From contig NZ_CP109078.1 in assembly GCF_035917455.1 (NCBI RefSeq), positions 3,658,001 through 3,722,000 on the forward strand: DNA of 64,000 nucleotides, given 5' to 3'. Of the stretch, positions 4,591 to 37,532 are shown one piece after another. A model generated the notes under the pieces. It had not been told where the DNA came from and did no database searches. It worked only from the letters and a program-made list of their open reading frames with translations. Source of the DNA: Micromonospora sp. NBC_01796. GTDB taxonomy: Bacteria > Actinomycetota > Actinomycetes > Mycobacteriales > Micromonosporaceae. The translations under genes were made by a program, and so were the position numbers. Position 1 is the stretch's first letter, and each line of letters opens with the position of its first letter.

Positions 4591-6492
4591 TCAGGTGCCT
4601 TCGGCGACCAGGAACGAGTACCAGTTGGATTCGTAGCTGACGCTGCCGTCGGCGCGGACGGCGTACACCTCCAGTTCGTGCCAGCCGCTGGTGGTGGGCG
4701 CCCAGGTGATGGTCGCCCGGCCGTCCTGGCCGGCGGGGACCTCGGTCGGTTCGGCGCCGTCGAACGAGTACCGGTAGGCCGAGGTGTCGGTCCAGCCGGC
4801 CACCGGAGTGAAGGTGAAATCACCCGGAACCCCGACCCCACCGCCCGCCGTGCCCGGCGGGTAGACCGTCGACCGTACGCCGGGGCGCTGGCCGAAGTAG
4901 TACGTCCAGTTCGTCGAGTCCGACCGGAACCCGTTCGCGCCCCGGCTGCGTACCTCGACCCGGTGGCCGTAGGTGTTGGTGGCGGGGAAGAACAGATGTG
5001 CCACCCCGTCGGCGCCGGCTGGCAGCGTCTGCGGTTCGCCGCCATCGAGCTTGTACTCGTATCCGGTCACGGTCAGGCCGGTGGCGGGGGACAGTCTCAG
5101 GTGCACCTGGCTGCCCCACTCCGGTGGGCCGTCGACCACCGACACGTTCGGCGCCGAGAACGGTACGTACATCTCGTACGTCGCCCACGGCGAGCTGTTC
5201 CCGGCCAGGTCGAGCGCGTAGACGTACAGCCGTTGGAATCCGCTGCGCTCCGGGCTCAGGGACACGGTGACCGACCCGCCCGGCGTGTTGGCCCGGACGG
5301 TGTCAGGCCGGTCGAACGGCTTCGTGCAGACGAGTTGACCGAGCGGCTCGCTGTACGAGCAGCCGGAGACACCGGGCTCGCTCCAGGAGTACGCGAAACC
5401 GGCGACGTCCCGGTTGCCGTTGCCGGAGAAGGTGAACCGACCCGGCACGCCCACCGGTGCGAACTCGCCGGTGTCGGCGTGTGGGTAGTTCGACGAGCTG
5501 ACCATCGGGGTCGGCGGGCGGGTCACGTCGTACGTGAAGTAGCACTTCTTCGACCATGCGGAGAGGTCGGCACCGTCACCGGCCCTGGCCTGCCAGGCGT
5601 ACGTCACGCCGTCGACCAGTGCGTTGGCGGGCACCGCTGCCCCGTTGGCCCGGCCGGACGTGCCGAAGTCGCCGGTGAACTCGGTCCGCTGCCGTGGCTG
5701 GTCGACGGGCCAGATCGCCGCCGTGGTGAGGATGGCGCGCTCGTCCCACGCGTCGGCGTCGGTGCCGACCGCCTGAATGGAGTTGGCGAAGGAGCCGATC
5801 CGTGGGTACGGCTTCGACGTGGTGCACGGGAAGCCGCCGTTGTAGAGATGGTTGTTGTCGACCGTCGGTACCGAGTTGAATTGCACGCTCAGCCGTACCG
5901 GGGAGTACCAGTACAGCTTGCGGCCGTAGGTCGGGTCGTTCTCGTACCGCTGCGGCACCCGGATCTCGAAGGTGATCCGCTGTTGCCGCTGCCGGACGGC
6001 GTCCTGTACGGCGGCGCTGACGTCGAGGTTGAGGTACTGGCTCGGGCATCCGTCGGGGGTGAGGATCTCGTCGGTCCTGACCAGCGGTTCCGGTGCCCGC
6101 TTCCAGGTGGGGGTGGCGTCGACCGGCTTGGTGCGCCAGATCTCGATCGCCCGCTTCGAGCAGTCGGCGGCGCTGCTCTCCCGGAGGAAGATCGAACCGC
6201 TGTAGATCTTCTTCCCCTGGTACGCGCTCAGGTCGAAGGTGGCGTACACCCGCGAGGTGTGTCTCACCCCCGCCGCGTCCCGCCAACTGCCGAGCGGTAG
6301 GTCCTCGTTCCCCGCGTCGTAGGCCGTCTTCGGATGGGCGGAGTCGGTGTAGCCGAGTTGCACCGATGCTGGCGTTCCGTTGTGCGGCGCGGCGTTGGCG
6401 GCGCCCGACGTGGCGAAGACGGCCAGTCCGCCCAGCCCGACAGACAGGGCGAGCAGCGGGACCAGCCCTTGGCGTGGCACGCGTCCGATCAC
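4591..6492 (-). CDS. large secreted protein with N-terminal DNRLRE-like domain and Ig-like repeats
   Basis: 633 residues from GTG 6492, chosen because GGGGAGGAA lies 7 nt upstream; an upstream ATG at 6564 would put 24 residues before the signal peptide. The signal peptide (LVPLLALSVGLGGLAVFA) is cleaved near ANA-APH. Residues about 45-200 (SRVYATFDLSAYQGKKIYSG, IEIWRT, TPTWKR, LNLDVSAAVQDAV) look like the DNRLRE carbohydrate-binding-like domain often found before RHS/teneurin-like secreted proteins. The rest is a run of aromatic-rich beta-sandwich modules sharing a G-x-PG-x-FTF motif (VPGRFTFS, VPGDFTFTP) at least twice. No catalytic motif is visible. It stands alone, without an RHS or toxin gene beside it. 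The role is unknown, possibly cell-surface or carbohydrate binding. Confidence 0.8.
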   Translation of the reverse strand: MIGRVPRQGLVPLLALSVGLGGLAVFATSGAANAAPHNGTPASVQLGYTDSAHPKTAYDAGNEDLPLGSWRDAAGVRHTSRVYATFDLSAYQGKKIYSGSIFLRESSAADCSKRAIEIWRTKPVDATPTWKRAPEPLVRTDEILTPDGCPSQYLNLDVSAAVQDAVRQRQQRITFEIRVPQRYENDPTYGRKLYWYSPVRLSVQFNSVPTVDNNHLYNGGFPCTTSKPYPRIGSFANSIQAVGTDADAWDERAILTTAAIWPVDQPRQRTEFTGDFGTSGRANGAAVPANALVDGVTYAWQARAGDGADLSAWSKKCYFTYDVTRPPTPMVSSSNYPHADTGEFAPVGVPGRFTFSGNGNRDVAGFAYSWSEPGVSGCSYSEPLGQLVCTKPFDRPDTVRANTPGGSVTVSLSPERSGFQRLYVYALDLAGNSSPWATYEMYVPFSAPNVSVVDGPPEWGSQVHLRLSPATGLTVTGYEYKLDGGEPQTLPAGADGVAHLFFPATNTYGHRVEVRSRGANGFRSDSTNWTYYFGQRPGVRSTVYPPGTAGGGVGVPGDFTFTPVAGWTDTSAYRYSFDGAEPTEVPAGQDGRATITWAPTTSGWHELEVYAVRADGSVSYESNWYSFLVAEGT

Positions 6493-6665
6493 TGTGGACT
6501 TCCTCCCCGTGGCTCCCGCACCCCACGCGCGGGATCTCAGCCACATTGAAGGCCATCTCCGCAATCCGGCAGCTCAGCGGCTCGGTCGAGGGCCGCTGGT
6601 TAGCATCTGGTGACGACCGCCGGCCGCGGCTGGTCGGGTCCGGAGCGGAGAGAGGGCGGCCGAAC

Positions 6666-7601
6666 ATGATCACCCGAGCTGATGTCGACGCGGCGGCGGT
6701 ACGGATCGCCGGGCAGGTGCGGCGTACTCCGCTGATCGAGGTCGATCCGGGGACCTGGGCCGGGCCGGGTTGGTTCAAGTGCGAGTTCATGCAGCACACC
6801 GGCTCGTTCAAGGCCCGGGGTGCGTTCAACCGGGTGCTCGCCGCCCGCGAATCCGGCGAACTCGACCCGGAGGTCGGCATCGTGGTCGCCTCCGGTGGCA
6901 ACGCCGGCCTGGCGAACGCGTACGCGGCTCGGGCGCTCGGGGCGCCGGCCACGGTCTTCGTGCCGCTGACCGCGCCGGCCGTGAAGGTGGCCAAGCTCCG
7001 GGCGTACGGGGCGACCGTGGTCCAGCACGGCAACGAGTACGCCGAAGCGTACGAGGCGGCGCTGAAGGCGGTCGCCGAGACGGGGGCGGTCCACTGCCAC
7101 GCGTACGACCAGCCGGAGATCGTCGCCGGTGCGGGCACCGCCGGCAGTGAGTTCATAGACCAGCTCGACGGGGAGGTCGACACGATCCTCGTCGCGGTGG
7201 GCGGTGCCGGGCTGATGGCCGGTGTCGCCGCCGCCGCCGAGGGAGTGGCCCGGGTTGTCGCGGTGGAGCCGGTGACCATCCCGACACTGCGTGACGCGCT
7301 GGAGCGGGGCGGGCCGGTCGACGTACCGGTGTCGGGGATCGCCGCCGACTCGCTCGGCGCCCGGCGGGTCGGCGACATCGCGTACGCGGTTGCCGTCCGG
7401 ACCGGCGTACGCAGCGTGTTGATCTCCGACGACGACCTGGTCGACGCCCGGCGGCAGCTCTGGGACCGGTGGCGGATCGTGGTCGAACACGGCGCCGCCG
7501 CCGCGTACGCCGCGCTCGCCTCGGGCGCGTACCGCCCGGAGCCGGGTGAGCGGGTCGGGGTGCTGCTCTGCGGGGCGAACACCAACCCGTCCGATCTCTG
7601 A
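6666..7601 (+). CDS. PLP-dependent serine/threonine dehydratase family protein
   Basis: 311 residues, fold type II PLP enzyme. HTGSFKARGAFNR carries the Schiff-base lysine (Lys49), ASGGNAGLA is the substrate loop and VGGAGLMAG the phosphate-binding loop. It should deaminate L-serine, L-threonine or a hydroxy-amino acid to a keto acid in the cytoplasm. At about 310 residues it has no ACT domain, so it resembles catabolic dehydratases or the threo-3-hydroxyaspartate ammonia-lyase group rather than biosynthetic IlvA. GGAGAGAGGG precedes ATG 6666. A glycine-rich loop normally reading GGGG is here VGGAG. The start region diverges from the leftward secreted gene. Confidence 0.88.
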   Translation: MITRADVDAAAVRIAGQVRRTPLIEVDPGTWAGPGWFKCEFMQHTGSFKARGAFNRVLAARESGELDPEVGIVVASGGNAGLANAYAARALGAPATVFVPLTAPAVKVAKLRAYGATVVQHGNEYAEAYEAALKAVAETGAVHCHAYDQPEIVAGAGTAGSEFIDQLDGEVDTILVAVGGAGLMAGVAAAAEGVARVVAVEPVTIPTLRDALERGGPVDVPVSGIAADSLGARRVGDIAYAVAVRTGVRSVLISDDDLVDARRQLWDRWRIVVEHGAAAAYAALASGAYRPEPGERVGVLLCGANTNPSDL

Positions 7602-7636
7602 CCCGGCGGGGACAGCAGGCCAGGGAGGTACGGCGG

Positions 7637-8146
7637 ATGCCGACGAGGGTGGTCCGGCCGGTCGAGCCGGGGGATCTTGACGAGGTGGCGGGGATCTACG
7701 CCCACTACGTGACCGGGAGCGTGGCGACCTTCGACGAGACCCCGCCGACCCCCGCCGACTGGCGGCAGAAGGCGCAGACCCTGCGCGGCGCCGGGCTGCC
7801 GTTCCTGGTGGTCGAGGTCGGTGGGGAGTTGGCCGGATTCGGGTACGCCAGCCAGTGGCGCCCCAAGCCGGCGTACCGGCACAGCGCCGAGAACACGATC
7901 TACCTTGCGCCGGGGCGTACCGGTGCCGGGCTCGGGTCGCTGCTGCTCGGCGCGGTGCTGGACGGTTGCGCGGCGGCCGGCGTACGGCAGGTCATCGCGG
8001 TCATCGCGGACACCGGCAGCGACGCCTCCGCCGCCCTGCACCGAAGGCACGGCTTCGTCGAGGTCGGCCGGCTCCGGTCGGTCGGCTTCAAGCACGGCCG
8101 GTGGATCGACACGACGATCTTCCAGCGTGATCTCACCGCCGGGTGA
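7637..8146 (+). CDS. GNAT acetyltransferase, phosphinothricin/methionine-sulfoximine acetyltransferase-like
   Basis: 169 residues. VRPVEPGDLDEVAGIYAHYV, FDETPP and the region from FGYASQWRPKPAYRHSAE match the PAT/MddA/YncA branch of the GNAT superfamily, which acetylates the amino group of phosphinothricin, methionine sulfoximine or related amino acids. The acetyl-CoA loop is GRTGAGLGSLL. An SD GGAGGT lies at 7624-7629, 7 nt before ATG. It follows the dehydratase by 35 nt and may be in one transcript with it. Its last 14 nt overlap the convergent D,D-carboxypeptidase gene. Substrate specificity cannot be read from the sequence. Confidence 0.85.
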   Translation: MPTRVVRPVEPGDLDEVAGIYAHYVTGSVATFDETPPTPADWRQKAQTLRGAGLPFLVVEVGGELAGFGYASQWRPKPAYRHSAENTIYLAPGRTGAGLGSLLLGAVLDGCAAAGVRQVIAVIADTGSDASAALHRRHGFVEVGRLRSVGFKHGRWIDTTIFQRDLTAG

Positions 8147-9395
8147 GGCGGTCCCAGACTCCCGGTGGTTCGAGCTGGTCGCCGGTGTGGAGCGGCCCAC
8201 CGACCGGTGGCTGCTCACCGACGGTCGCGGTCACCCGACCGTGTTCGGCGCCGGCCGAGAGCTGCCTCGGTACGGGCGGGATCTCGGTGTCGAGCCGTAC
8301 CTCCAGGCCCGGCCAGCCGATCACCTCGACATCCCGGGCGGCCCGCAGCGTCGTCGTACCGGTGTCGAGCGGGCCGCGTACGTCGGCCACCTCCTGCCCG
8401 GCCGTGACCACCGTGTGTACGCCCAGCGCGGCGGCGGCCGAACGGACCAGCGGGGTGGTCGCCCGGAACACCGCCCGGAGTTGCTCCGGGGTGTGCGCAC
8501 CCGGCTGCCCCAGCACCGCGCCGACAACAAGGAGGCTGGTGGTGCCGACCTTCACCACGGCGGCGAAGGTGAAACAGCCCCCGGCCTCGTCGGTCGAGCC
8601 GGTCTTGACCCCCACCACGCCGTCCCGCCCGAGCAGGTCGTTGTAGTTGGTGATCGTCCCCTCGACCGGGACGGTCGCCTTCGACTGGGCGACGATCTCC
8701 GCGAATGCCGGGAGGGCCATCGCCTTCCGGGTCAGGATCACCTGGTCGACGGCGGTGCTCACGGTGTCCGGGGCGAGCCCGGCCGGGTCCGTGTACCGGG
8801 TGTTGACCATGCCGAGCCCGGTCGCCATCGCGTTCATCTTGTCGACGAACGCGGCCACGCTGCCCGCGTCCCAGGCGGCCAGGATCCGGGCCATGTTGTT
8901 CGCCGACGGCAGCATCACCGCCTGCAACGCCTGCCGCTGGGTGAACTGCGCCCCGGCGGCGACCCGGATCAGCGACTCGCCCCGCGCCTTCTCCGCCGGG
9001 TACGCCGCGGCCTGCGCCGCGCTGACGGTCAGGCTCGGCCCCGACTCGCCGACACCGAGCGGATGATCGGTCAGCACCACGTACGCGGTCATCACCTTCG
9101 CCACGCTGCCGATCGCCACCGGGGTCGGGCTGCCGAAGTTGCCCAGGTCACCGAGGCCCTCGATGGAGACCGCGGCCTGCCCGGTCGACGGCCACGGCAG
9201 CTCCGGCGCGGTGCCGGGGATCCTGGTCGAGGCGGGCAGGATCGGCTCGGCGGTCGGCCTCGGCGGGTCGTGCCAGAAGGGCTGGCTGACGAACAGCCCG
9301 ATCGCGACGAGCACCAGCGCCAGCGCGGCGGGCAGGAGCAGCTTCAGCCGTCGCGAACGGCGTTGCGCCGCCGCGTACGAGGCCGACTGGTACAT
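8133..9395 (-). CDS. D-alanyl-D-alanine carboxypeptidase-like membrane protein (peptidase S11)
   Basis: 420 residues. A basic cytoplasmic start (QRRSRRLK) is followed by one membrane anchor (LLLPAALALVLVAIGLFV), so the enzyme faces the wall. The three penicillin-binding motifs are SVAK (Ser97, Lys100), SAN (164-166) and KTG (264-266). Enzymes of this family trim the terminal D-Ala from peptidoglycan stem peptides and belong to the low-molecular-mass PBPs. GGGAGGAA precedes ATG 9395. The C-terminal part after residue 300 resembles the DacA beta-domain. It is convergent with the acetyltransferase, overlapping by 14 nt. Confidence 0.9.
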   Translation of the reverse strand: MYQSASYAAAQRRSRRLKLLLPAALALVLVAIGLFVSQPFWHDPPRPTAEPILPASTRIPGTAPELPWPSTGQAAVSIEGLGDLGNFGSPTPVAIGSVAKVMTAYVVLTDHPLGVGESGPSLTVSAAQAAAYPAEKARGESLIRVAAGAQFTQRQALQAVMLPSANNMARILAAWDAGSVAAFVDKMNAMATGLGMVNTRYTDPAGLAPDTVSTAVDQVILTRKAMALPAFAEIVAQSKATVPVEGTITNYNDLLGRDGVVGVKTGSTDEAGGCFTFAAVVKVGTTSLLVVGAVLGQPGAHTPEQLRAVFRATTPLVRSAAAALGVHTVVTAGQEVADVRGPLDTGTTTLRAARDVEVIGWPGLEVRLDTEIPPVPRQLSAGAEHGRVTATVGEQPPVGGPLHTGDQLEPPGVWDRLTRR

Positions 9396-9511
9396 GAGCG
9401 GTGTTCCTCCCGAGGCGAGACAGCCGTAGGCGCTGACGAATCTGATATTGCCGCTGGTCGTGGGCCCGGTGGGGCATCATCGACAGATTGACTCCGGCGG
9501 GACCGGCCGGT

Positions 9512-10690
9512 TCAGCCCAGCGGTTCGCCCTGCGCGGTGGGCAGCCCCAGGGCACGCCGTACGGCCAACTCGGTCTCGGGGTTGGCGTGCTGCTCGGCCC
9601 GAGTCAGCCGCTCGAACAGCGCGTCCGGGCTGGCCGCGTTGCCGAGGTCACGCCAGAGCGGTTCGGCGGCCTCCGCCTCCAGCACGAGCCGGTCCATCGC
9701 CGGCTGCACCGGAGCTGGCCAGGGGCCGAGCCTCAGTCGCTGCCTCCGCTCCGACTGCTCCATCACCACCCTCGTCGCCGCGTCACCCAGCTCCGTCATG
9801 GGGGCGGTACGGCCCAGGGCCCTGACCCGCTCGATCTCCTCCCTGGCCTCCCTGATCGCGAGCAGGAAGCGCAGCTGTTCGGCGTCCACGGTCGCCGCGT
9901 TCATCTTCAACGGCCGGTCGAACGTGCCGTTCCCACCGGCGAGAAAGCAGGCGATCGAGCCACGGGACTGGGTCCATTCGGATTCGCGGGGCAGGAACCA
10001 GCGCAGGTGGGTGCCGGCCGGCAACGAGAGCGGATCGAGTACGTAGTCGCGTCCGAGTGTCGGGCACCAGGTCTCGGCCCGCCGAGTGAGCGTGTCGGCG
10101 CCCGGGTAGGCGCCCAGGAACTCCGGCGGGTGCTTCTCCATCGGGTCGTCGTAGTGGCCCGGTGCCTGCCCGACGAACTCGGCGTTGTGCGGCTGCGTGC
10201 ACTCGATCACCGTGAACGAGTCGCTGATGAACGGCGTACCCGGTCCGGGTTCGTCGAGGTTCAGGCAGTCGCCGGACCGGAGGTCGTGGATGGCGTTGAC
10301 CCGGTCGGCCGTCTGTAGGAACACGACCAGGCCCACGGCGGCGACGATCATCCAGACGCCCAGCAGTGACAGGCCGGCGATGGCGAGCCCCTTGCCCCGA
10401 CGACCGGTCCGCCCGATGTCGCGCAGCGCGATGATCCCGAAAACGAGGCCGAGCAGCCCGCCGAGCAGGCCGAACACGAAAGCGAGGACCGCGAACCCAC
10501 TCAGCCTGGTGTTCTGCGGCGCAGGGCCGGTCAGACCCGGAAGCCGTCGATGGACCAGGTCCGGATCGTCGAACGGGTGCTCCCACGTATCCCAGTCGAT
10601 GGTCGATCGGTCGGATGGCCGCCCTGCGGGCACCGCCTGCTCCGGACCGGGTGCCTCGGGTGGTGCCGGATCGGTTCCGTCGGCGGTCAT
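9512..10690 (-). CDS. DUF4190 membrane protein with septum-formation-like domain
   Basis: 392 residues. An acidic and proline-rich cytoplasmic N-terminus of about 70 residues is followed by two membrane segments (FAVLAFVFGLLGGLLGLVFG and LSLLGVWMIVAAVGLVVFLQ), the DUF4190 pattern. The extracellular part (LRSGDCLNL ... VIECTQPHNAEFVG ... CPTLGRDY ... IACFLAGG) carries the paired cysteines of the actinobacterial Septum_form domain. The last 120 residues are charged and helical. ATG 10690 is preceded by GGGGGAGGAA. The domain is named after a corynebacterial septum-linked protein, but a direct role in septation here is not shown. It is not obviously in an operon. Confidence 0.78.
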   Translation of the reverse strand: MTADGTDPAPPEAPGPEQAVPAGRPSDRSTIDWDTWEHPFDDPDLVHRRLPGLTGPAPQNTRLSGFAVLAFVFGLLGGLLGLVFGIIALRDIGRTGRRGKGLAIAGLSLLGVWMIVAAVGLVVFLQTADRVNAIHDLRSGDCLNLDEPGPGTPFISDSFTVIECTQPHNAEFVGQAPGHYDDPMEKHPPEFLGAYPGADTLTRRAETWCPTLGRDYVLDPLSLPAGTHLRWFLPRESEWTQSRGSIACFLAGGNGTFDRPLKMNAATVDAEQLRFLLAIREAREEIERVRALGRTAPMTELGDAATRVVMEQSERRQRLRLGPWPAPVQPAMDRLVLEAEAAEPLWRDLGNAASPDALFERLTRAEQHANPETELAVRRALGLPTAQGEPLG

Positions 10691-27982: not shown

Positions 27983-29335
27983 ATGACACTGACCGAACTG
28001 GACACCGATCCGCGGCCGGACCTCGCCGCCGGGCCCGCCCGGCCGGGTGGTCGCCGGCTGCGGGGTGTACGGCGCCGCCGGTTGCGCCGGCTGCTGGTGC
28101 CGACTCCCAACCGGTTCGTGCTGGTCGGAATCATGCTGGTGCTGCTGTTCGCGCTGACCGCCGGCATCGCCGGGCTGGCCGCACGGGCCGCCGTCGACGC
28201 CGGGGAGGTAATGGTCACCAGCGCCGCCCAGATGAGCGGCAACGCCCAGGCGATGCACCGGTGGCTGGCCGAGGCCGATGCCGCCGCCACCGGTCGGTTT
28301 CTCGCCCCACCCGACTCCGGCCAGCGGGTGCAGCTCAACCGCAACTACGAGGACGCGCTCGGCGAGGTACGCCGGCTGCTGGCCGAGTCGGCCGGGCTGA
28401 CCGGCGGCGACCCGGACCGGGCCACCGGGTTGGCTCGGGTGGCGAACCAGTTGCCGGTCTACACCGACCTCGTCCGGCGGGCCCAGGAGCTGGGCGCGGA
28501 GCCGGCCGACAGGCGGCTGGACGCGCTGCTCGGCTCGGCGTACCTGCGGGAGGCGTCCGGCTACCTGCGCGGTGTCCTGCTCCCCGCCGCGCAGCAGCTC
28601 TGGGAGGACGAGACGACCAGGCTGAGCGAGGCCCGGCGGGACGGCCAACTCGCCCTGTTCGGGTCGATCGGCATCACCCTGCTCACCCTGGTCCCGCTCT
28701 GGTGGAGCCAGCGCTACCTGCGGCGTCGCACCAAGCGCCGGGTCAACCCCGGGCTGGCCTTGGCCACCGCCGCCATGCTCGCCACCACCGGCTGGCTGGT
28801 GGTCTCCTGGCGGCACTGGCCGCAGGCCGAGGAGCGGCTGACGGTCGCCGGCCGCAAGCTCGACCAGCACCGGGACCTGATCGAGATCCAGCGCGACGCA
28901 CTCCGCGCCCGCGCCGACGTCCACCTGCGACTCGGCGGTAACAGCAACCAGTACGGCATGGTGGCCCTCAACGAGCGGTTCCGGCGGGACGCGCACTGCG
29001 ATTCGACCGTGGCCGGCTTCACCGACCAGATGCGGGTCCTGGTCGGCGTCTGGTGCACGGGCCACGATCGGTACATCGTGGAGAACGAGCGGCTCGGCGC
29101 CCACCCGGCGGCGGTTGCCGCAGCACTGCCCGGCGGTGAGGTCGCCACCGCGTTCACCCACTACGACACCGAGCTGACCAAGGAAATCAACCGGGTCGAC
29201 CGGGAGATCTACCAGGAGCTGACCAACACGCCACCGGCACCGACCTCGCTGGGTGTGGTCACGCTGCTGCTCTGCCTGATCGGCGCCGCCGGGGTGGCGG
29301 TCGGCATCGGGGTACGGGTGAGGGAGTACCGATGA
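27983..29335 (+). CDS. glnX: GlnX-like four-helix membrane sensor protein
   Basis: 450 residues with four membrane segments: FVLVGIMLVLLFALTAGIAG (about 46-65), LALFGSIGITLLTLVPLWW (about 223-241), LALATAAMLATTGWLVVSW (about 256-274) and SLGVVTLLLCLIGAAGVAVG (about 424-443). Two extracytoplasmic loops of about 150 residues lie between helices 1-2 and 3-4, and both are helical and Arg/Glu-rich, like sensor domains. This layout and the next genes match mycobacterial GlnX, the membrane link between the amino-acid-binding lipoprotein GlnH and kinase PknG. The stop overlaps the GlnH start (ATGA). ATG 27983 was taken; GTG 27977 is in frame. Confidence 0.8.
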   Translation: MTLTELDTDPRPDLAAGPARPGGRRLRGVRRRRLRRLLVPTPNRFVLVGIMLVLLFALTAGIAGLAARAAVDAGEVMVTSAAQMSGNAQAMHRWLAEADAAATGRFLAPPDSGQRVQLNRNYEDALGEVRRLLAESAGLTGGDPDRATGLARVANQLPVYTDLVRRAQELGAEPADRRLDALLGSAYLREASGYLRGVLLPAAQQLWEDETTRLSEARRDGQLALFGSIGITLLTLVPLWWSQRYLRRRTKRRVNPGLALATAAMLATTGWLVVSWRHWPQAEERLTVAGRKLDQHRDLIEIQRDALRARADVHLRLGGNSNQYGMVALNERFRRDAHCDSTVAGFTDQMRVLVGVWCTGHDRYIVENERLGAHPAAVAAALPGGEVATAFTHYDTELTKEINRVDREIYQELTNTPPAPTSLGVVTLLLCLIGAAGVAVGIGVRVREYR

Positions 29336-30372
29336 CGAGTTACCCGACCGGACCGCGCCGCGCCACCGCCGTACTCGCCGTGGTGCTGGTGCTCGCCGGG
29401 AGCGGCTGTGCGAGCAGCTACCAGCCGCCGCCGGTGGCTTCGCCGTACCCGGTCGGGGCGCAGCGGCCGGCGCCGACCCCCAGTCCGATCAGCGCGCCCG
29501 ACTGCGACGCGCGGCTGAGTCTGCGGCCGGATCCGACCCCGCCGGGCAAGTACGTCGAGCAGGGTTACATCCGGGCCGGGGTGGACCAGACGATGACCCG
29601 GATGACCTCCCGTAATCCGGCCACCGGGGAGTTCGAGGGCTTCGACATCGAGTTGCTGCACGAGGTCGCCAAGGCGATGTTCCCCGGCAGGGACCCGAAG
29701 GAGACGCTACGGTTCGTCGTGGTCACCTCGGGCGAGCGGCAGCAGCGGCTCAACGACGGGACGGTGGACATCGTCGCCGACTCGATGACCGCGACCTGCG
29801 CGCGTGCCACGGAGGTCGCCTTCTCCACCGACTATCTCGACTCGGGGCAGACCGTGCTGGTGCGCGGCGACTCCCCGTACCAGGGGATCGGGGACCTGGG
29901 CGGCAAGGCGGTCTGTGCGGCGACCGGCACCACCTCGCTGGAGCACACCCGGGCCCGGCCGGAGAAGCCGCTGCCGGTGTCGGTGCCGAACTGGACCGAC
30001 TGCCTGGTCATGCTGCAACAGAAGCAGGTCGAGGCGATATCCACCGACCACAACGTGCTGCTCGGTCTCCGGGACCTCGACCCGACCACCCGGTTGGTCA
30101 CCCAACCGCCGTCGCGCCCGACCGGCGACACCTCCTGCGACTGGCACGACGAGCCGAAATCGTCCTGCACCTGGTTCAGCGACGAACCGCACGCGGTCGC
30201 CACCCGGCAGGACGACGTCGCCCTGCTCCGGTTCGTCAACCACGTGCTGGAGCAGATCCGGCAGAACGGCAGGTGGGTGCAGATGCACGAGAAGTGGCTG
30301 CCGGAGCACCCGGACAACGGGCCGCCCCCGGCCCGCTACGGCCCCAACCTGTCCTGGCCCCCGGGCATGTGA
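29332..30372 (+). CDS. glnH: GlnH-like amino-acid-binding lipoprotein (SBP family 3)
   Basis: 346 residues. A signal peptide ends at VLVLAGSGC, a likely lipobox cysteine, followed by a Pro-rich linker. The binding domain has YIRAGVDQTMTRMTSRNPAT, EFEGFDIELLHEVA, GERQQRLNDGTVDIVADSMT and VCAATGTTSLEH, the bilobed fold of polar-amino-acid receptors. No amino-acid ABC permease or ATPase is adjacent, so it is probably a sensor rather than a transporter part. In mycobacteria GlnH binds aspartate or glutamate and signals through GlnX to PknG. The start overlaps the glnX stop by 4 nt. Confidence 0.87.
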   Translation: MTSYPTGPRRATAVLAVVLVLAGSGCASSYQPPPVASPYPVGAQRPAPTPSPISAPDCDARLSLRPDPTPPGKYVEQGYIRAGVDQTMTRMTSRNPATGEFEGFDIELLHEVAKAMFPGRDPKETLRFVVVTSGERQQRLNDGTVDIVADSMTATCARATEVAFSTDYLDSGQTVLVRGDSPYQGIGDLGGKAVCAATGTTSLEHTRARPEKPLPVSVPNWTDCLVMLQQKQVEAISTDHNVLLGLRDLDPTTRLVTQPPSRPTGDTSCDWHDEPKSSCTWFSDEPHAVATRQDDVALLRFVNHVLEQIRQNGRWVQMHEKWLPEHPDNGPPPARYGPNLSWPPGM

Positions 30373-30379
30373 GGACGGA

Positions 30380-31693
30380 ATGGCCGAACCACGCGCACGG
30401 GAACATCCGGGAGGACAGCACCAGCCGGAGGTGCAGCATCAGCAGGGCGGGTCGGCTCAGCCGGAGGCGGAACTGCACCGGCTGCGGGCCGAGTGCGCCC
30501 GGCTGGCCGGCGCCCTGGTGGTCCGCGACGAAGCGGACGGCTACCGGCAGCTGGAGCGGCCGGACGCCGCCGGGGCGACCGCCCGCGCCTGGCAGGACGT
30601 CCAGTGGCGGATCGGAGAGCTCGCCGCCCAGCTCGCCGCCGCCCAGCAGTTGCTCGACCGGGCGGACCTGTTGCGTCAGCGCCGCTTCGCCGGCCCGGTC
30701 GAACGGTCGGGCCCGGTCGCCGAGGTGGATCCGGGCGCACCGGCCGGTGACACCGAGCTGTGGGCACTGCTGCGCGGTCCGTGCGAGGTGGTCCTGACCG
30801 CGGCCACCGGCGCACCCGTCGAGGTGATCGCTTTGCCCCTGCCGGAGGTGATCGTCCGGGCCGGCGAGCACCACGCCGCGATCCTGGCCGTGGCCGAGGC
30901 GGTCGCCGCCGCCCGCGCCACCATGCTCACCCGGCTCGAAACGGTGGTCGGGCGGCTCGCCGAGGTGCGGGGCCGGGCGGCCGGGGTGTCCGTACCGGAC
31001 GCGCTGATCGAGGGCCTGCAGACCGAGATCGACACACTCCGGCGGTCCGGGGAGCGGGATCCGCTGGGGGCGGCCGACGGGGTGGCCTGGGCCGCCGCCC
31101 GGGACCGGCTCGCCGCCAGGATCACCGAACTCGGCGTACGGGTGGGACGGGCCGAGGAGCTGCGCGGCCGGTTGCCGGGCCTGGTGGACGAGTTGCGGCT
31201 GCTGATCGGTCGACTCGACGCGGACGAGACCGAGGCGAGACACGCGTGGCGGGGCCTCACCCCGATCCCCGGCGATCCCGAGCCCGGCCCCGATTCCGGC
31301 CCACCGGTGCCGCAGGCCGCGACCCTGCGGGTACGGCTGCGCGCGGTCGAACGCCGTTGCCGCCGGGGTGAGTGGTGGGACGCGGTCGACGAGGAGTCCG
31401 AGCCGGCCGAGATCGGTGCCGAGGTGACCTCGGCGGCGGAGCAGGCCGCGCGTGCCCGGGACGCGGCCGGGATACGGCGGCGACGCCTCTACGACTACCG
31501 GATCGAGCTTCGGGGCCGGCTGGACGCCTTCCAGCGCAAGGCGTTCGGTGCCGGGCGTTCCGAGGACCTGGCCCTGACCGACCTCTACAACGAGGCCCGG
31601 CGTCGACTCCGGGCGGATCCGCTCGACGCCCCGGCCGCCGACCGGGCGGTCAACCGGTACCTGCACGCGGTGAACGAGGAGGGTCCGGCATGA
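30380..31693 (+). CDS. coiled-coil protein of unknown function in the pknG operon
   Basis: 437 residues, no signal peptide or membrane segment. The first 25 residues are Gln- and Pro-rich. Residues about 30-110 (ELHRLRAECARLAGALVV, QWRIGELAAQLAAAQQLLDR) and 200-300 (LTRLETVVGRLAEVRGRAAG, LAARITELGVRVGRAEELRG) show heptad-like Leu/Ala spacing. A proline-rich break near 310 is followed by another basic helical part (RLYDYRIELRGRLDAFQRKA). It lies 7 nt after glnH and its stop overlaps pknG (ATGA), so it is almost certainly made together with the kinase. I recognise no family. A scaffold for kinase assembly is a guess from position only. Confidence 0.75.
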   Translation: MAEPRAREHPGGQHQPEVQHQQGGSAQPEAELHRLRAECARLAGALVVRDEADGYRQLERPDAAGATARAWQDVQWRIGELAAQLAAAQQLLDRADLLRQRRFAGPVERSGPVAEVDPGAPAGDTELWALLRGPCEVVLTAATGAPVEVIALPLPEVIVRAGEHHAAILAVAEAVAAARATMLTRLETVVGRLAEVRGRAAGVSVPDALIEGLQTEIDTLRRSGERDPLGAADGVAWAAARDRLAARITELGVRVGRAEELRGRLPGLVDELRLLIGRLDADETEARHAWRGLTPIPGDPEPGPDSGPPVPQAATLRVRLRAVERRCRRGEWWDAVDEESEPAEIGAEVTSAAEQAARARDAAGIRRRRLYDYRIELRGRLDAFQRKAFGAGRSEDLALTDLYNEARRRLRADPLDAPAADRAVNRYLHAVNEEGPA

Positions 31694-34134
31694 ACGGCTG
31701 TCTCGCCCGCGACTGTCCGGGCGCCGTCGACCTCGACGGCTTCTGCCTCAAGTGGGGCCACCGCTGCGCCGGCCAGTCCGGCGAGGACTCCGCCGGCTCC
31801 AACGGGTCGAACGGCGCCGAGGGTGGCTCGGTCGCGGGATCCGGGCCGGTGCGCGGCGGCGCTCCGAGCGCGTTCGCCCGGCCGTCGGTGGCCGCCCGTC
31901 CGAGCCGGCCCGCCACCGCACCGCCGGCCTCGGCCGGAGCGGATCGGCGGGCGGGACCGAGTGGTCCGGACCCGGTCGGGGTCAGCTCGGGTGGTGCCGG
32001 CTGGCGTACGGGGTCGGGCAGCGGGTCGACCGGTGGCGGCTCCGGTGGGGGCGCGGGCGCCCGACCGGGCGGAGGACCACCACCCGGCTTCGGCGGCGGG
32101 ACCCGGCGCTGGTTCGGGCTGGTCGAGATGCCGGTGGTCCCGCCACGGGATCCGCTCACCGCGATCCGGGCCGAGCACGCCGTACCCGAACACGCCCGGA
32201 TCTGTGCCCGGTCCTCCTGCCGGCGACCGGTCGGCCGGACCGACGGCACCGACTCCGGCATCACCACCGGCTACTGCCCGCACTGCGGCACCCCGTTCTC
32301 GTTCGTTCCGCCGCTGCACGACGGTGACGTGATCAAGCAGCGGTACCGGATCCGGGGCTGCATCGGTTACGGCGGGATGGGCTGGATCTTCGCCGCCCGG
32401 GACGAGGACATGGACGCGAGCTGGCGGGTGCTCAAGCGCCAGCGGGCCGCCGAGGACGCCACCGCCGCCGAGGCGTTCGTCGGGGAACGGCGGGCACTGA
32501 TCGCCCTGGACCACCCGAACATCGTCAAGATCTACGACTTCGTGCCGCCGGAGGCGGGCGACGGTACGCCGTACATCGTGATGGAGTTCGTGGGCGGGCA
32601 GTCGCTGGACGAGATGCGACCGCGCCCGTCCGGCTGGGGCGTACCGGGGCCGCTGCCGTTGCCGCAGGTGCTGGCGTACGGGCTGGCCATCCTGGACGCC
32701 TTCGAGCACCTGCACGAGCAGGACTGGCTCTACTGTGACCTGAAGCCGGACAACGTCATGCACGTCGGCAACCGGCTCAAGCTGCTCGACCTCGGTGCCG
32801 CCCGCCGCGCCGACGACCTGGACAGCCCGCTGCTGGGCACCCGTGGTTTCGAGGCGCCCGAGGTGCACAGGCACGGGGCGCGGGCCGCCTCGGTCCGCTC
32901 CGACCTCTACACCGTCGGGCGCACCCTCGGGGCGCTCAGCCTGGCCGCCAACACCAGCCAGTACGTGAGCCGGTTCCCGGACGGGCGGCTGCCGGACGCG
33001 GTGCCGCAGTTGCTCGACGAGCACGAGTCGTACCGCCGACTGCTGGCCCGGTCGACCCACCCGGAGCCGGGCCGCCGGTTCGGTTCGGCCGACGAGATGT
33101 ACGCGCAGGTGCACGGCGTACTCCGGCAGGTGCTCGCGGAGCAGGGGCAGGAGGTGCCGCCCACGGCGTCCACCCTGTTCGGGCTCGCGCCCCGCCCGTT
33201 CGGCGCGTACGACGATCTGACCACGCCGGTGCCGGCGGCGATGGTGGCCACCGCGCTCCCGGCGCCGCTGATGGATCTCGCCGATCCCGGTGCCGGTTTT
33301 CTCGGCTCGGTCGGCGCGGTCCAGCCGGCGGAGCTGATCGGCCTGCTCGGTCGGGCACCGGAACGCAGCCGGGACGTGCTGCTCCGGCTGACCCGGGCCT
33401 ACCTCGACGCCGGGCAGCCCGAGTTGGCCGCCGGCACCCTGACCGAGCTGGCCGCCCGGCCGGACGCCCCGGTCGACGACTGGCGGCTGGACTGGCACCA
33501 CGGGCTGGTCGCCCTGGCCTCGGGCGACATCGGCGCCGCCCGCCAGCACTTCGACACCGTGTACGGGCTGCTGCCCGGCGAACTGCCGGCCCGACTCGGG
33601 TACGCGGTGACCAGCGAACTCGACGGCGACCTGCCCACGGCCGAGCGGCACTACGCGGCGGTCTGGGCCACCGAGCGCTCGTCGTTGAGCGCGCTGTTCG
33701 GGCTGGCCCGTACCCGGTTGGGGCAGGGTGACCGGCGGGGGGCCGCAGCGGCCCTGGACGAGGTTCCGGAGACGGCCAGTTACCGGGTGCCGGCGCAGGT
33801 CGCGAAGGTCAGGGCGCTGCTGTCCGGTGCCCGGGTGGCGGATCCGGCCGAGGTCGACCTGGTGGACGCCGCCGTCGCGGCGGAGGCGATCGACCTGACC
33901 GGGGCCGCCCGGGACAGCCTCACCGCCGAGGTGCTGGAGGTGGCGCTCGCCTGGGCGGTGCCGCGCCAGCCGGCCGGCACGGAACAGGTGTTCGGGGTGC
34001 CGCTGGCCGAGGAGCGGCTGCGGGAGCGGCTGGCCGAGGTCTACCGCTCGCTGGCCCGGCAGAGTGTGTCGCGCCAGGAGCGGGTCGCCCTGGTGGACCG
34101 GGCCAACCAGGTACGTCCCTGGACCTGGCTGTGA
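31690..34134 (+). CDS. pknG: PknG-type serine/threonine protein kinase (zinc/rubredoxin-kinase-TPR)
   Basis: 814 residues, no membrane segment. The start has a cysteine cluster (C4, C9, C19, C26), then about 110 residues of Ser/Gly/Pro-rich linker. A rubredoxin-like knuckle pair follows: C172-x4-C177 and C196-x2-C199 (YCPHCGTPFSF). Kinase domain about 215-475: GCIGYGGMG loop, Lys249, YCDLKPDNVM (Asp350) replacing HRD, and DLG (Asp367) replacing DFG, both as in mycobacterial PknG. A TPR-rich C-terminal half runs from about 540 to 814. PknG phosphorylates GarA/OdhI-type FHA proteins to set 2-oxoglutarate and glutamate flux. The ATG overlaps the previous stop. The first knuckle is C-x4-C instead of the usual C-x2-C. 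Confidence 0.93.
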   Translation: MNGCLARDCPGAVDLDGFCLKWGHRCAGQSGEDSAGSNGSNGAEGGSVAGSGPVRGGAPSAFARPSVAARPSRPATAPPASAGADRRAGPSGPDPVGVSSGGAGWRTGSGSGSTGGGSGGGAGARPGGGPPPGFGGGTRRWFGLVEMPVVPPRDPLTAIRAEHAVPEHARICARSSCRRPVGRTDGTDSGITTGYCPHCGTPFSFVPPLHDGDVIKQRYRIRGCIGYGGMGWIFAARDEDMDASWRVLKRQRAAEDATAAEAFVGERRALIALDHPNIVKIYDFVPPEAGDGTPYIVMEFVGGQSLDEMRPRPSGWGVPGPLPLPQVLAYGLAILDAFEHLHEQDWLYCDLKPDNVMHVGNRLKLLDLGAARRADDLDSPLLGTRGFEAPEVHRHGARAASVRSDLYTVGRTLGALSLAANTSQYVSRFPDGRLPDAVPQLLDEHESYRRLLARSTHPEPGRRFGSADEMYAQVHGVLRQVLAEQGQEVPPTASTLFGLAPRPFGAYDDLTTPVPAAMVATALPAPLMDLADPGAGFLGSVGAVQPAELIGLLGRAPERSRDVLLRLTRAYLDAGQPELAAGTLTELAARPDAPVDDWRLDWHHGLVALASGDIGAARQHFDTVYGLLPGELPARLGYAVTSELDGDLPTAERHYAAVWATERSSLSALFGLARTRLGQGDRRGAAAALDEVPETASYRVPAQVAKVRALLSGARVADPAEVDLVDAAVAAEAIDLTGAARDSLTAEVLEVALAWAVPRQPAGTEQVFGVPLAEERLRERLAEVYRSLARQSVSRQERVALVDRANQVRPWTWL

Positions 34135-34195
34135 ACCTCCGTACCCGCGCAGTGCCGCGCCGTCTCTGCCCGCTTCGATCCGGGGAGGTGCGCCG

Positions 34196-35767
34196 GTGAG
34201 CGCTGGCCCGAGCTTCGACATCAGCACCCACTACGAGATGTACCTGCCGACCGAGGGGACCCTGGTGGACGTGGTCGCCACCGTCCGCTCGACCGGCGCG
34301 GCGGCCGGGGACGGTGGGTCCGGACTGGTGGCGCCGCACCTCGCCGAGGTGATCCTGCTGGACTGTTCGGGTTCGATGGGGTCACCGACGAGCAAGCTGA
34401 TCCAGGCTCGTCGGGCGGCGATCGCGGCCATCGACGCGCTGCCGGACGGGGTCCGGTTCGCCGTGGTGGCGGGGACCCACACCGCGGAGATGATCTATCC
34501 GGGGACGGCCCGGTTGATGGTTGCCGGGGACACCACCCGGACCGCCGCCAAGGAGGCGCTGCGCCGTACCGGTGCCGGTGGCGGTACGGCGATGAGCAGG
34601 TGGCTCCGGTTGGCGGCCCGAATCTTCGACGAGGCGCCGGGCAGCGTACGGCACGCGATCATGCTCACCGACGGGCGTAACGAGAGCGAACCCGTCACCG
34701 AGTTGGACGCGATCCTGGGCGAGTGCGCCGGTCACTACACGGTGGACTGCCGGGCGATCGCCGAGCGGCCGGGGGTGCACGCCTGGCGGGGCACCGAGCT
34801 GATTCGGATCGCCGACGCGCTCGGCGCGAACCCGGTGGTGCCGGTGGAGGACCTGGACCGTCTCTCCGCCGAGTTCACCCAGCTCATCGCGGGCGCCCTG
34901 GGTCAGCGGACGGCGGACGTCCGGTTGCGCGTACGGACGTCGGCGCTGGCCGGGGTCCGGTTCGTCAAGCAGGTGTACCCGACCATCGCCGACCTCGCCG
35001 AGCTGGCCCAACCGGTCGACGGCCAGACCACCGACTATCCGATCGGGTCGTGGGGCGAGGGGCACCGGGATTACCACATCGGGCTGGCGGTGCAGCCGAT
35101 GGCGGCCAACGAGACCCGCCGGGTGGCCTGGCTGAGCCTGCTGGTGCCGGGCGTGGCCGAGCCGGCCGACGTGCTGCCCGACCAGGACCGGCCGGCCGGG
35201 GTCGGGATCGCGGAGGTCGGGCAGACGGCGGTGGCGGTGGAGTGGACGGAGGACATCGCCCGCTACACGGGGATCAACCCGACGGTGGCCCACTACACCC
35301 GGCAGCAGGAGCTGGCGGCGGCGATCCGGGCCGCCTGGGAGGCGTTCGACGAGCGCCGGCTCGCCGACGCCGAGGCGTTGATGGGGCGGGCGGTGGCGTT
35401 GGCGCACGCCGCCGGTGCGCACGACAAGCTGGCCGTCTTCGACCGGGTGGTGAAGATCGAGGACGCCGCGTCGGGACGGGTGCGGCTCCGGCCGGACGTC
35501 GACCCCGGCCACTGGCAGGTGCCGACCGTCACCGGCCACCACACCCGTTCCTGGGACACCGCCGGTCCGACCGGTCTCAGCGGCCCGAACGACGGGCGCG
35601 ACAACGGCGCGTCCGGTCCCGTACCGCTCGGTGGGGTGCCGGGTCCACGCTCGCCGGAGGTGGAGGTCGCCCCGCTGCCGGACGAGTGCCCGGAGTGCCG
35701 GACCCGCCGCCGGGGGCGGTTCTGCGAGCGGTGCCGGTACGACTTCCACGCGAGCCGGACCGGCTGA
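34196..35767 (+). CDS. VWA-domain protein with C-terminal zinc ribbon, pknG-linked
   Basis: 523 residues, cytoplasmic. VWA domain about 45-230 with a complete MIDAS: D56-x-S58-x-S60 (DCSGSMGS), T131 in GGGTAMS and D159 in LTDGRNE. A second beta-rich region (about 235-340) resembles that after VWA domains of inter-alpha-trypsin-inhibitor-like proteins, then a helical stretch (QQELAAAIRAAWEAFDERRL). A disordered linker leads to a zinc ribbon C498-x2-C501 and C510-x2-C513. GTG 34196 has GGGGAGG 7 nt upstream. The stop overlaps the NTPase start (TGATG). Position suggests a metal-dependent protein-binding adaptor of the PknG module; the partner is unknown. Confidence 0.85.
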   Translation: MSAGPSFDISTHYEMYLPTEGTLVDVVATVRSTGAAAGDGGSGLVAPHLAEVILLDCSGSMGSPTSKLIQARRAAIAAIDALPDGVRFAVVAGTHTAEMIYPGTARLMVAGDTTRTAAKEALRRTGAGGGTAMSRWLRLAARIFDEAPGSVRHAIMLTDGRNESEPVTELDAILGECAGHYTVDCRAIAERPGVHAWRGTELIRIADALGANPVVPVEDLDRLSAEFTQLIAGALGQRTADVRLRVRTSALAGVRFVKQVYPTIADLAELAQPVDGQTTDYPIGSWGEGHRDYHIGLAVQPMAANETRRVAWLSLLVPGVAEPADVLPDQDRPAGVGIAEVGQTAVAVEWTEDIARYTGINPTVAHYTRQQELAAAIRAAWEAFDERRLADAEALMGRAVALAHAAGAHDKLAVFDRVVKIEDAASGRVRLRPDVDPGHWQVPTVTGHHTRSWDTAGPTGLSGPNDGRDNGASGPVPLGGVPGPRSPEVEVAPLPDECPECRTRRRGRFCERCRYDFHASRTG

Positions 35768-37509
35768 TGGCCTTCGACCTCTTCGAGTGGCTGGAGCGGT
35801 TCGACAACATCTCGTCGATCGTGGTCAGCACGATCGCCGTACTGGCGATGATCGGGGGCAGTGCCGCCTGGCAGCGCCGCCGGCCGGGCCGGACCGCGGT
35901 GACCACGGAATCGGTACGCGCACTGGTGGCCGCCCAGCGCGACGCGGTACCGGCGCACGCGTACCAGTTCCTCGACGGTTCGGTCTCCTCGCTCTCCGCG
36001 ATCTACGTACGGCAACGGGTCGCGCCGGGTGCCGGTCCGATCGGGCCGGTCCCGGCGTTCGAGGCCGACCGGCTGCTCCGTACCGACCCGCACCTGTTGC
36101 TGGTCGGACCGGCGGGCAGCGGCAAGACCACCTTCGTCGGGCACGCGGTGCGGGAACTGGCGCGCGGTTTCACCGGCACCGGGACCGGTCGAGGTCGGGC
36201 CGGGGCGCCGGAGCAGGTCGGGTTGGCGCTGTCGGCGACCGCCCTGGTCGACCGGTCGTTGCCGGAGGCGCTGGCCGAGGCGTACCGGTTCGGGCTGCCG
36301 ACCGTGTTGACGGGGCAACCACCGGGGCGGTCCGGGCGGTGGCTGGTGCTGGTCGACGGGGTGGACCGGATCACCGATCCGAACGTCCGGTCACGGGTCC
36401 TGGGGCAGTTGCGGGAGTGGGCGGCCCGGGTGGACCACCCGTACCGGCTGCTGCTCACCACCCGCCCGCTGGCGGCGGAGGAGACAACCGCGCTGCGGAC
36501 GTACTTCGCCGAGCATCGCCTGCTGCCGTTCGACCCGGCCGACCTGTCGGTGTTCGCCGAGCGCTGGTTCCGGGACCGGGTGGCCGACCCGGAGCGGGCC
36601 GATCGCGACCGGGACCGGTTCCGGGTGGAGCTGGACCGGGTCGACCTGGCCGAGCTGACCGGCAACCCGTTGCTGGTCACGCTCGCGGCGTTGAGCTGGG
36701 AGGGCCGGTCGGGGGTGTTGCCGCCGGGGCCGGCGGAGCTGCTGGACCGGTTCGTCCCGCACCTGGTCGAGAGCGGTGCCGCCGCGGTCGAGGAGACCGG
36801 CGCCGCGCTGGGCCGCCGGGGCGGTTCGGGTACGGCGGTCGCCGCCTGGCTGGACGAGCAGGTCGAGGGCCTGTGCGAGGCTGCCGCGGCGGGCTGGCTG
36901 CGCGACCGTGCCGCGGTTTCGGCGGCGGTCGGCTGGACCAACGAGTACGCCCCGGTCCCGCCCGGTGGGCTGCTGCGGGACTGGCCCGGTCGGGTCCGTG
37001 CCCTGCTCGTCGCCACCGGGTTGTACGTCCCGCGTGGCGCCGACGCCGACCCGCTGACCCGGGCGGTGGCGGAGTACCTGGCGGCGGGGCCGGTGGCCCG
37101 GTCCTGGCAGGAGCCGGAGTGGTTGGCGCTGATGGCCGACCCGTCGACCCGTGGGACGGCGGTGTACGCGCTGGCGCGGGCGGGTCGGGCGACCGAGTCG
37201 ACGCTGACCCGGTTGGCCGCCGGAACCGGTGCGCAGGTGCTCGCCTCCGGGCATCTGCTCGGCGCCGGGATCCCGATGTCGGACGGGGTACGGGACAAGG
37301 TCCTGGCCGAGTTGTTGCGGCACTGGCAGGCCGGTGAGCGCCCGTTGGCCGCCGACTGCCTGGCGGTGCTGGCCGAACTCGCCGTGGCGCCGGTGATCCG
37401 GCGGGCGGTGTTCGGGATCTCCGCCGATCCGCGTTGGCCACGTCAGGTGCGCTCGGCAGCCACCACCTTCGCTGCCGTGCCGGCCCTGCACCGCCCCGCG
37501 CCGGATTGA
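35767..37509 (+). CDS. membrane-anchored NACHT-like P-loop NTPase
   Basis: 580 residues. One membrane segment lies near the start (ISSIVVSTIAVLAMIGGSAAW, residues about 15-35), so the bulk is cytoplasmic. Walker A is GPAGSGKT (114-121, Lys120), Walker B LVLVDGVDRI (Asp197), then LLLTTRPLA as the sensor/arginine region and ELTGNPLLVTLAAL, the pattern of NACHT/STAND signalling NTPases. A helical C-terminal part follows, with repeats too weak to name. It overlaps the VWA gene by one base. STAND NTPases work as ligand-triggered assembly switches; that role here, next to a kinase and a VWA protein, is inference. It is the last gene before an intrinsic terminator. Confidence 0.82.
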   Translation: MAFDLFEWLERFDNISSIVVSTIAVLAMIGGSAAWQRRRPGRTAVTTESVRALVAAQRDAVPAHAYQFLDGSVSSLSAIYVRQRVAPGAGPIGPVPAFEADRLLRTDPHLLLVGPAGSGKTTFVGHAVRELARGFTGTGTGRGRAGAPEQVGLALSATALVDRSLPEALAEAYRFGLPTVLTGQPPGRSGRWLVLVDGVDRITDPNVRSRVLGQLREWAARVDHPYRLLLTTRPLAAEETTALRTYFAEHRLLPFDPADLSVFAERWFRDRVADPERADRDRDRFRVELDRVDLAELTGNPLLVTLAALSWEGRSGVLPPGPAELLDRFVPHLVESGAAAVEETGAALGRRGGSGTAVAAWLDEQVEGLCEAAAAGWLRDRAAVSAAVGWTNEYAPVPPGGLLRDWPGRVRALLVATGLYVPRGADADPLTRAVAEYLAAGPVARSWQEPEWLALMADPSTRGTAVYALARAGRATESTLTRLAAGTGAQVLASGHLLGAGIPMSDGVRDKVLAELLRHWQAGERPLAADCLAVLAELAVAPVIRRAVFGISADPRWPRQVRSAATTFAAVPALHRPAPD

Positions 37510-37510
37510 G

Positions 37511-37532
37511 GCGTCCTCGGGACGGCGTTTTT
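37511..37532 (+). terminator. intrinsic terminator of the glnX-pknG operon
   Basis: CGTCC (37512-37516), loop TCG, GGACG (37520-37524), then GCG and TTTTT (37528-37532). It begins 2 nt after the NTPase stop. Confidence 0.65.

Follow-up and report, generated by a model that had tools for sequence, protein, structure and literature searches.

The window analysed here, a 64,000-nucleotide (nt) stretch of the Micromonospora sp. NBC_01796 genome, contains on its plus strand a six-gene operon (positions 27983-37509) that includes pknG, the gene for a much-studied bacterial Ser/Thr kinase. In this operon, glnX, glnH and pknG form one operon-like run, with the gene cc inserted between glnH and pknG, and the run is followed by genes for a VWA domain protein and a NACHT-type NTPase. 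The six genes had been proposed in an original prediction; all of them are real and are located as follows:

27983-29335, plus strand: glnX, predicted membrane signal transducer, transmembrane segments at residues 45-63, 223-241 and 424-442 by hydropathy
29332-30372, plus strand: glnH, lipoprotein solute-binding protein of predicted Asp/Glu type (SBP_bac_3, 90 bits)
30380-31693, plus strand: cc, 437 amino acids, rich in helix-forming residues, fold unassigned
31690-34134, plus strand: pknG, Cys cluster at the N-terminus, rubredoxin, kinase and TPR domains
34196-35767, plus strand: vwa, GTG start, VWA domain with a complete metal ion-dependent adhesion site (MIDAS), conserved C-terminal region, C-terminal zinc ribbon
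35767-37509, plus strand: ntp, NACHT-type NTPase of 580 amino acids with a predicted membrane anchor
37512-37524, plus strand: weak terminator-like hairpin just 3' of the ntp stop

The gaps between consecutive genes, from glnX to ntp, are -4, +7, -4, +61 and -1 nt, such that the overlaps of 1-4 nt that had been predicted for most junctions are present at three of the five; the 61-nt gap separates the pknG stop codon from the vwa start codon. No sigma-70-like promoter was identified in a scan of the 11.4-kb operon region, and a hairpin scan over 11.4 kb yielded three terminator-like sites against 1.5 expected, so that the hairpin after ntp is suggestive by position only. We infer that the six genes share a single transcript. 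All six are under purifying selection, with ratios of nonsynonymous to synonymous substitution rates (dN/dS) of 0.19-0.42 in comparisons with two congeners. Furthermore, the operon is inherited as a block: in another genus (locus L120; L, G and f numbers denote loci, genomes and families, respectively), the DNA-level match to the window covers positions 28092-37484 only and the flanks differ, and within the genus of the window the flanks are shared.

PknG matches the Pfam models PknG_TPR (236 bits), PknG_rubred (69 bits) and Pkinase (81 bits), all over their cut-offs, and its residues 142-811 align to the PknG structure 2pzi (407 bits). The N-terminal Cys cluster consists of C4, C9, C19 and C26, the catalytic motif CDLKPDN is retained, and the protein is the sole PF16919 or PF16918 match in this genome. 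GlnX scored 219 bits with the NCBIfam GlnX subfamily model, under the cut-off of 250, and 82 of 780 with the equivalog model, and is therefore referred to as a GlnX relative; neither GlnX nor cc had any match in the Pfam scan. Like GlnH with SBP_bac_3, the VWA protein matches Pfam over cut-off (VWA_2, 46 bits, and VWA_3), and the profile of its family aligns over nearly its full length with PDB 4fx5, a deposited VWA structure (508 bits). As predicted, it combines a complete MIDAS (D56, S58, S60, T131 and D159, identical in 16/16 aligned VWAs) with a zinc ribbon (Cys498/501/510/513). Among its Pfam and NCBIfam matches there was no TerY-named model (no TerY sequence was compared).

The membrane-anchored P-loop NTPase of the original prediction was likewise recovered: the ntp product passes the NACHT model (35.1 bits, cut-off 26.7) and contains a Walker A motif, GPAGSGKT, and a Walker B region, VDGVD, and the membrane anchor is supported by a hydrophobic segment spanning residues 12-30. 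No repeat model matched it in the Pfam scan, although undetected repeats are possible. The assignment of cc as a coiled-coil protein held in part: helix-forming residues are abundant, but the periodicity falls within the range of 60 shuffled sequences. Conservation in the cc alignment is strongest near the C-terminus, and searches of PDB with the cc profile gave weak, mutually unrelated matches (best E 0.004). This profile grew from 41 to 143 matches over successive rounds and spans 551 positions, exceeding the length of the window protein as raw frames around the gene are included; hence, only matches of at least 150 bits were counted as cc.

The usual pknG operon and its phosphatase

We surveyed 121 PknG loci, 120 of them hand-picked to spread over families and genera plus the window, using profiles that were built up from the six proteins of the window and from one PP2C phosphatase (bit thresholds: glnX 40, the lowest counted match being 42 in L180; glnH 150; VWA 100; NTPase 100; PP2C 300; cc 150). 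The PP2C profile scores split into values of at most 49 and at least 380. Architecture labels on the PknG tree described below derive from an earlier PP2C profile with a 130-bit threshold, and all PP2C counts from the final profile. The family of the window is f1, codes f2 and f4 are read as mycobacteria-like and Streptomyces-like, respectively, and f87, f7, f80 and others are represented by coordinates only. At the genome level, PknG (PF16918 over cut-off) is encoded in 20/296 genomes of the phylum sample, 141/394 of the class and 106/200 of f1.

A GlnX relative is present in 119 and GlnH in 102 of the 121 loci. VWA accompanies pknG in 97/121, always on the same strand and no more than 2.5 kb downstream (97/97), and cc is found in 71/121. 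The association with PknG that the original prediction expected of all three extra genes thus extends to VWA and cc, which are widespread PknG partners, but not to the NTPase, which was detected in five survey loci and later in one more (L289). The idea that the three extra genes are peculiar to the window genome was rejected, given the wide distribution of VWA and cc.

The reverse test, starting from VWA, covered 80 named loci (the best 80 of 560; mostly Streptomyces, also Actinomadura and Actinoallomurus): pknG lies upstream in 74, and the other six have less than 1.3 kb of contig upstream. Across the 394 class genomes, 93 encode both PknG and VWA, 48 PknG only, one VWA only and 252 neither (Fisher p 7e-53, not corrected for relatedness; four VWA candidates were scored per genome, and G583 and G671, with PknG below the cut-off, were dropped). 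G717 was counted as PknG only, yet its locus L199 has a weak VWA match (141 bits). Thirty-three of the 48 PknG-only genomes belong to f2, where two of the 35 sampled genomes with PknG carry VWA, in extra full-operon copies (L176 and L177). The 14 loci from f2 and f71 comprise ten plain glnX-glnH-pknG runs, two pknG genes without glnX or glnH, and these two extra full usual operons.

PP2C is present in 80/121 PknG loci. Among the 97 loci with both pknG and VWA, the two genes are spaced by 0.9-2.2 kb in 69, and PP2C fills this space on the same strand in 69/69 loci carrying both PP2C and VWA; a PP2C gene is also present in all 80 named VWA loci (best 80 of 560). The two loci scanned, L088 and L179, gave PP2C_2 scores of 57.5 and 50.3 bits and in both the N-terminus matched zinc-ribbon models, in one case over cut-off. 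Because PP2C lies between pknG and VWA throughout, the usual operon is GlnX-GlnH-cc-PknG-PP2C-VWA; much of f86 has the variant order cc-PknG-PP2C-VWA-GlnX-GlnH. Thus, in most of the families sampled, with the mycobacteria-like family as an exception, the usual operon joins a sensor (GlnH/GlnX) to a kinase/phosphatase/VWA triad. Eleven loci have glnX, glnH, pknG and a PP2C gene downstream of pknG, without a VWA match or a cc match of at least 150 bits, and represent a further reduced form (L102, L112, L124, L125, L127, L128, L129, L131, L140, L158 and L161).

The window shares five of its six genes with the usual operon, in the same order, but it lacks PP2C, includes a NACHT NTPase and has a zinc ribbon on its VWA. 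That the window does not have the phosphatase, whereas 69 of the 97 VWA-bearing loci do, was invisible to the original prediction, which drew on one genome. A genome-wide search (E 1e-5) with the operon-type PP2C of the congener G304 gave no match in the window genome (G000) or in G342. G304 itself has both the usual operon (L085) and the NACHT version (L086), and in G304 and G327 the operon-type PP2C adjoins their other, usual-type PknG. PP2C is also missing from ten other VWA-bearing loci and, in f2 and f71, from the 12 loci of three-gene type.

In mycobacteria and corynebacteria, GlnX, GlnH and PknG act together and the described operon consists of three genes, according to passages of PMC6069109 and PMC9769921; this operon and its signalling model are established there and in parts of PMC8546545. 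The window has the same three core genes, order and domains, with a largely kept GlnH pocket and a GarA gene in its genome, and adds cc, VWA and the NACHT NTPase. Genes for a Ser/Thr kinase and a stand-alone vWA, in most cases with a PP2C as well, are neighbours in actinobacterial sets found beside GAP1-N2 GTPases, as reported in sections of PMC7159879, and in the TerY-P triad, as summarised in a part of PMC4978471. In the former, a zinc ribbon on the kinase is a feature according to the same sections. The window resembles these triads in that the kinase adjoins VWA but differs in that PP2C is missing, and no Ter or GTPase-system family was among the Pfam and NCBIfam matches of the six proteins. 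The main text of PMC6069109, PMC9769921 and PMC8546545 does not contain the term "von Willebrand," and the available text of PMC7159879 does not mention PknG (GlnX was not searched there). Among the open-licence papers examined, we found no paper joining PknG with VWA/PP2C or NACHT, or Trypco1 with a binding protein; one 2005 survey mentions PknG once, in a reference.

NACHT-type and trypsin-type PknG clades

In an unrooted tree of 127 PknGs (IQ-TREE quick mode, LG+G4, Shimodaira-Hasegawa-like approximate likelihood ratio test, SH-aLRT), two clades, each with SH-aLRT 100, stand apart from the remainder: a NACHT-type clade (n = 6), to which the window belongs, and a trypsin-type clade (n = 14). 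The tree carries a long-branch warning that concerns, among others, L144 with L289 and L180 with L184. PP2C is absent from all six NACHT-clade loci and is also missing from the trypsin-type clade. The existence of this separate clade, like the phosphatase of the usual operon, goes beyond the original prediction.

Within f1, the NTPase gene lies beside pknG in six of 200 genomes (G000, G342, G304, G330, G490 and G327; coordinates compared by eye), and relatives (E at most 1e-10) occur somewhere in 64/200, these six included. Among the 394 class genomes, with three candidates scored in each, one further relative was found at E of at most 1e-25, and it is not beside the PknG or VWA match of its genome. 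On these counts, a role of the NTPase as a general PknG partner was rejected. The order glnX-glnH-pknG is the same in L086, L087, L120 and L144. Among the four clade members scanned for it (the window, L120, L144 and L289), the NACHT domain scores 33.6 bits in L120.

Of three relatives examined that are not adjacent to pknG, the one in L350 is a 1178-amino-acid frame with a NACHT domain and, in its second half, HEAT_2 at residues 906-985, adjoined by APH and EamA genes; the relative in L351 adjoins an APH gene, and esterase and glycosyl hydrolase genes lie next to that in L352. Compared with the HEAT-bearing relative, the window NTPase is roughly half as long; of the features of NACHT (STAND) NTPases, it shows the domain match and the P-loop, and C-terminal sensory repeats were not detected.

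One explanation for this distribution is that the NACHT gene is a passenger, captured beside pknG and co-transcribed with it without any shared function. It is consistent with the small number of family genomes in which the NTPase adjoins PknG relative to the 64 that encode a relative somewhere. However, the NTPase is present in every member of one PknG clade (6/6), ntp overlaps vwa by 1 nt and travels with the operon block into the genus of L120, and dN/dS versus L087 is as low for ntp as for pknG (0.19 each). We consider the passenger scenario very unlikely.

In 13 of the 14 trypsin-clade loci (L098, L101, L114, L123, L136, L143, L145, L146, L149, L156, L163, L180 and L187), a Trypsin_2 protease gene precedes pknG; in the remaining one, L184, the tested gene encodes a metallophosphatase-like protein instead. 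The C-terminus of the trypsin protein matches the C-terminal half of cc in 12/13 loci (48-142 bits), L187 being the exception. VWA is present in 13/14 loci of this clade and a GlnX relative in 14/14 (lowest score 42 bits). Since the kinase, VWA and the GlnX relative are kept, the core of the locus is retained while the attached enzyme changes. Whereas the window has a NACHT NTPase, the trypsin-type loci thus have a trypsin-like protease as the attached enzyme, along with a downstream SBP_bac_1 binding protein (3/4 tested) and Trypco1 (5/5 tested).

The trypsin-like protease and Trypco1 raise the possibility of a conflict (defence or altruistic) system, in which the NACHT NTPase would be an immune-type effector or switch, the PknG module its trigger or safety catch, and the amino-acid sensor would signal host damage or starvation. 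Sections of PMC7159879 describe Trypco1, and NACHT NTPases of sporadic occurrence, in conflict systems of multicellular bacteria; the same source places a kinase-PP2C-vWA set beside GAP1-N2 GTPases. Moreover, PknG matches 32 PADLOC kinase models (best PD-T4-6, 116 bits), but these matches involve the kinase domain and are expected for many kinases of that fold. In PADLOC, the matches of the NTPase are limited to short P-loop segments of mad8 and MkoA, and the other four proteins have none. In addition, the locus lies in shared synteny within the genus, and no MoxR model was among the Pfam and NCBIfam matches of the six window proteins, such that the MoxR AAA+ partner typical of MoxR-vWA ternary conflict systems was not found among them. 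On balance, we regard a conflict function of the window operon as unlikely.

At the surveyed loci, the zinc ribbon on VWA is restricted to those without the phosphatase. It was found in 0/69 usual PP2C loci and 0/80 named VWA loci (best 80 of 560), and in 4/6 NACHT-type, 7/13 trypsin-type and 1/10 other PP2C-less loci; for the NACHT and trypsin types together, the contrast is 11/19 versus 0/149 PP2C-bearing loci (Fisher p 1e-12, not corrected for relatedness). The ribbon on VWA is thus a mark of phosphatase-less loci. It might represent a docking part for which the usual operon relies on PP2C, and the window on VWA. Beside an additional, phosphatase-less PknG copy, L162 encodes a VWA-zinc ribbon-FHA protein (6059-7960, minus strand; FHA 45.9 bits, ribbon models below cut-off), which ties VWA to phosphothreonine recognition.

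Amino-acid sensing, GarA and a possible NTPase output

The best PDB match of the window GlnH is the GlnH structure 6h2t (177 bits). We matched its pocket by hand to the numbering of Mycobacterium tuberculosis GlnH, the pocket residues of which are described in a section of PMC6069109. R136 (Arg147), R158 (Arg169), W221 (Trp232) and D239 (Asp250) are kept, S151 (Thr162) and T153 (Ser164) are Ser/Thr swaps, and D150 replaces Lys161, a position variable in the family. The window GlnH is therefore plausibly a sensor of aspartate or glutamate.

GarA, the presumed downstream target, is encoded in the window genome (L285, 173.6 bits to GarA structures) and is highly conserved across the 41 family genomes in which its sequence was read. 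Together with the intact catalytic motif of PknG, this is compatible with the view of the original prediction, in which a VWA/NTPase assembly acts upstream and sets PknG activity, with GarA/OdhI phosphorylation as the sole output. However, GarA is equally conserved in 13 genomes of the family that lack a PknG match, so that its conservation is uninformative on PknG. Furthermore, the position of the first Thr in the TTS motif of mycobacteria, which we take to be the PknG site (the one support being an abstract on OdhI Thr14), is Val in 40/41 family genomes and Thr in G340, and the substitution occurs whether or not a genome encodes PknG. Finally, since the three-gene operon works together in mycobacteria and corynebacteria (passages of PMC6069109 and PMC9769921), the NTPase is not generally needed to drive the kinase. 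An upstream role of the VWA/NTPase assembly with GarA as the only output thus appears improbable to us, and the original prediction as a whole is partly supported. GarA sequence was also considered as a means to separate hosts of NACHT-type from those of usual PknG; this was rejected because the sequences are near-identical in both and in genomes without PknG.

GarA of Saccharopolyspora is treated in part of PMC12321487. In families outside f1, GarA loci L333-L335, L344 and L346-L348 seem to have a zinc ribbon at the N-terminus, ahead of the phospho-motif, and the f1 GarAs read have no such ribbon.

We tentatively read the window, with confidence a little short of even, as the NACHT-type version of a modular PknG sensor operon with exchangeable outputs, with the NTPase as its output. 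GlnH would bind an acidic amino acid outside the cell and GlnX would pass the signal across the membrane, whereupon PknG would be switched through its TPR domain, following the model developed by others for mycobacteria and corynebacteria. The cc and VWA proteins might form an intracellular docking assembly through which PknG is connected to its output. In the usual operon, PP2C could reverse the action of the kinase. In the NACHT clade, with no PP2C and often a zinc ribbon on VWA itself, the partner would be a NACHT NTPase that is anchored in the membrane and does not have the half that bears repeats in the longer relative, and kinase signalling via VWA and cc could take the place of those repeats. 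A change in amino-acid status might then license assembly of the NTPase at the membrane, in addition to or instead of control through GarA. Judged from the comparative pattern, the NTPase as output would fit at least as well as a VWA/NTPase assembly that sets kinase activity.

Several observations weigh against this modular reading. The association of NACHT with PknG is confined to six genomes, three of them of one genus, and two of the six NACHT-clade members, L144 and L289, are long branches. In L289 and L144, respectively, the NACHT domain scores 25.8 and 22.5 bits, below the cut-off of 26.7; the cc match is weak in L144 and L289 (81 and 68 bits), the VWA ribbon looks degenerate in both, and the DGxD Walker B pattern was not seen in L144. 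Moreover, the GlnH of L144 is without the pocket Arg and Trp, and no GlnX or GlnH was found in the 12.5 kb of locus L289, so that Asp/Glu sensing is not universal in the NACHT clade. Because the tree is unrooted, PP2C may have been absent from this clade from the start, without any loss. Finally, the window genome has five other PP2C_2 genes over the cut-off, such that a phosphatase could act in trans.

More broadly, beyond its role as a three-gene GarA kinase, PknG may be the core of a general sensor-kinase-VWA module that actinobacteria connect to one of several outputs: a membrane NACHT NTPase, a trypsin-like protease or a reversible arm formed by PP2C. In the window, assembly of an immune-type STAND ATPase would then depend on an outside amino acid, with the kinase and a VWA adaptor as the link, and kinase signalling would substitute for the missing sensory repeats; the mycobacterial and corynebacterial operon would be a stripped form. 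This wider proposal is possible, although we lean against it. Most work on PknG concerns organisms in which the operon is at its smallest. Should the operon elsewhere usually hold its own phosphatase, VWA and docking protein, the off-switch of PknG and its further targets would become directly testable in harmless actinomycetes. Judging from the NACHT and trypsin versions, immune-type effectors appear to have been coupled to a nutrient sensor more than once.

At L289 (G327), a glutamate synthase-domain frame (8487-10400, minus strand) lies just upstream of the NACHT-type run of cc-like, PknG, VWA and NTPase genes.

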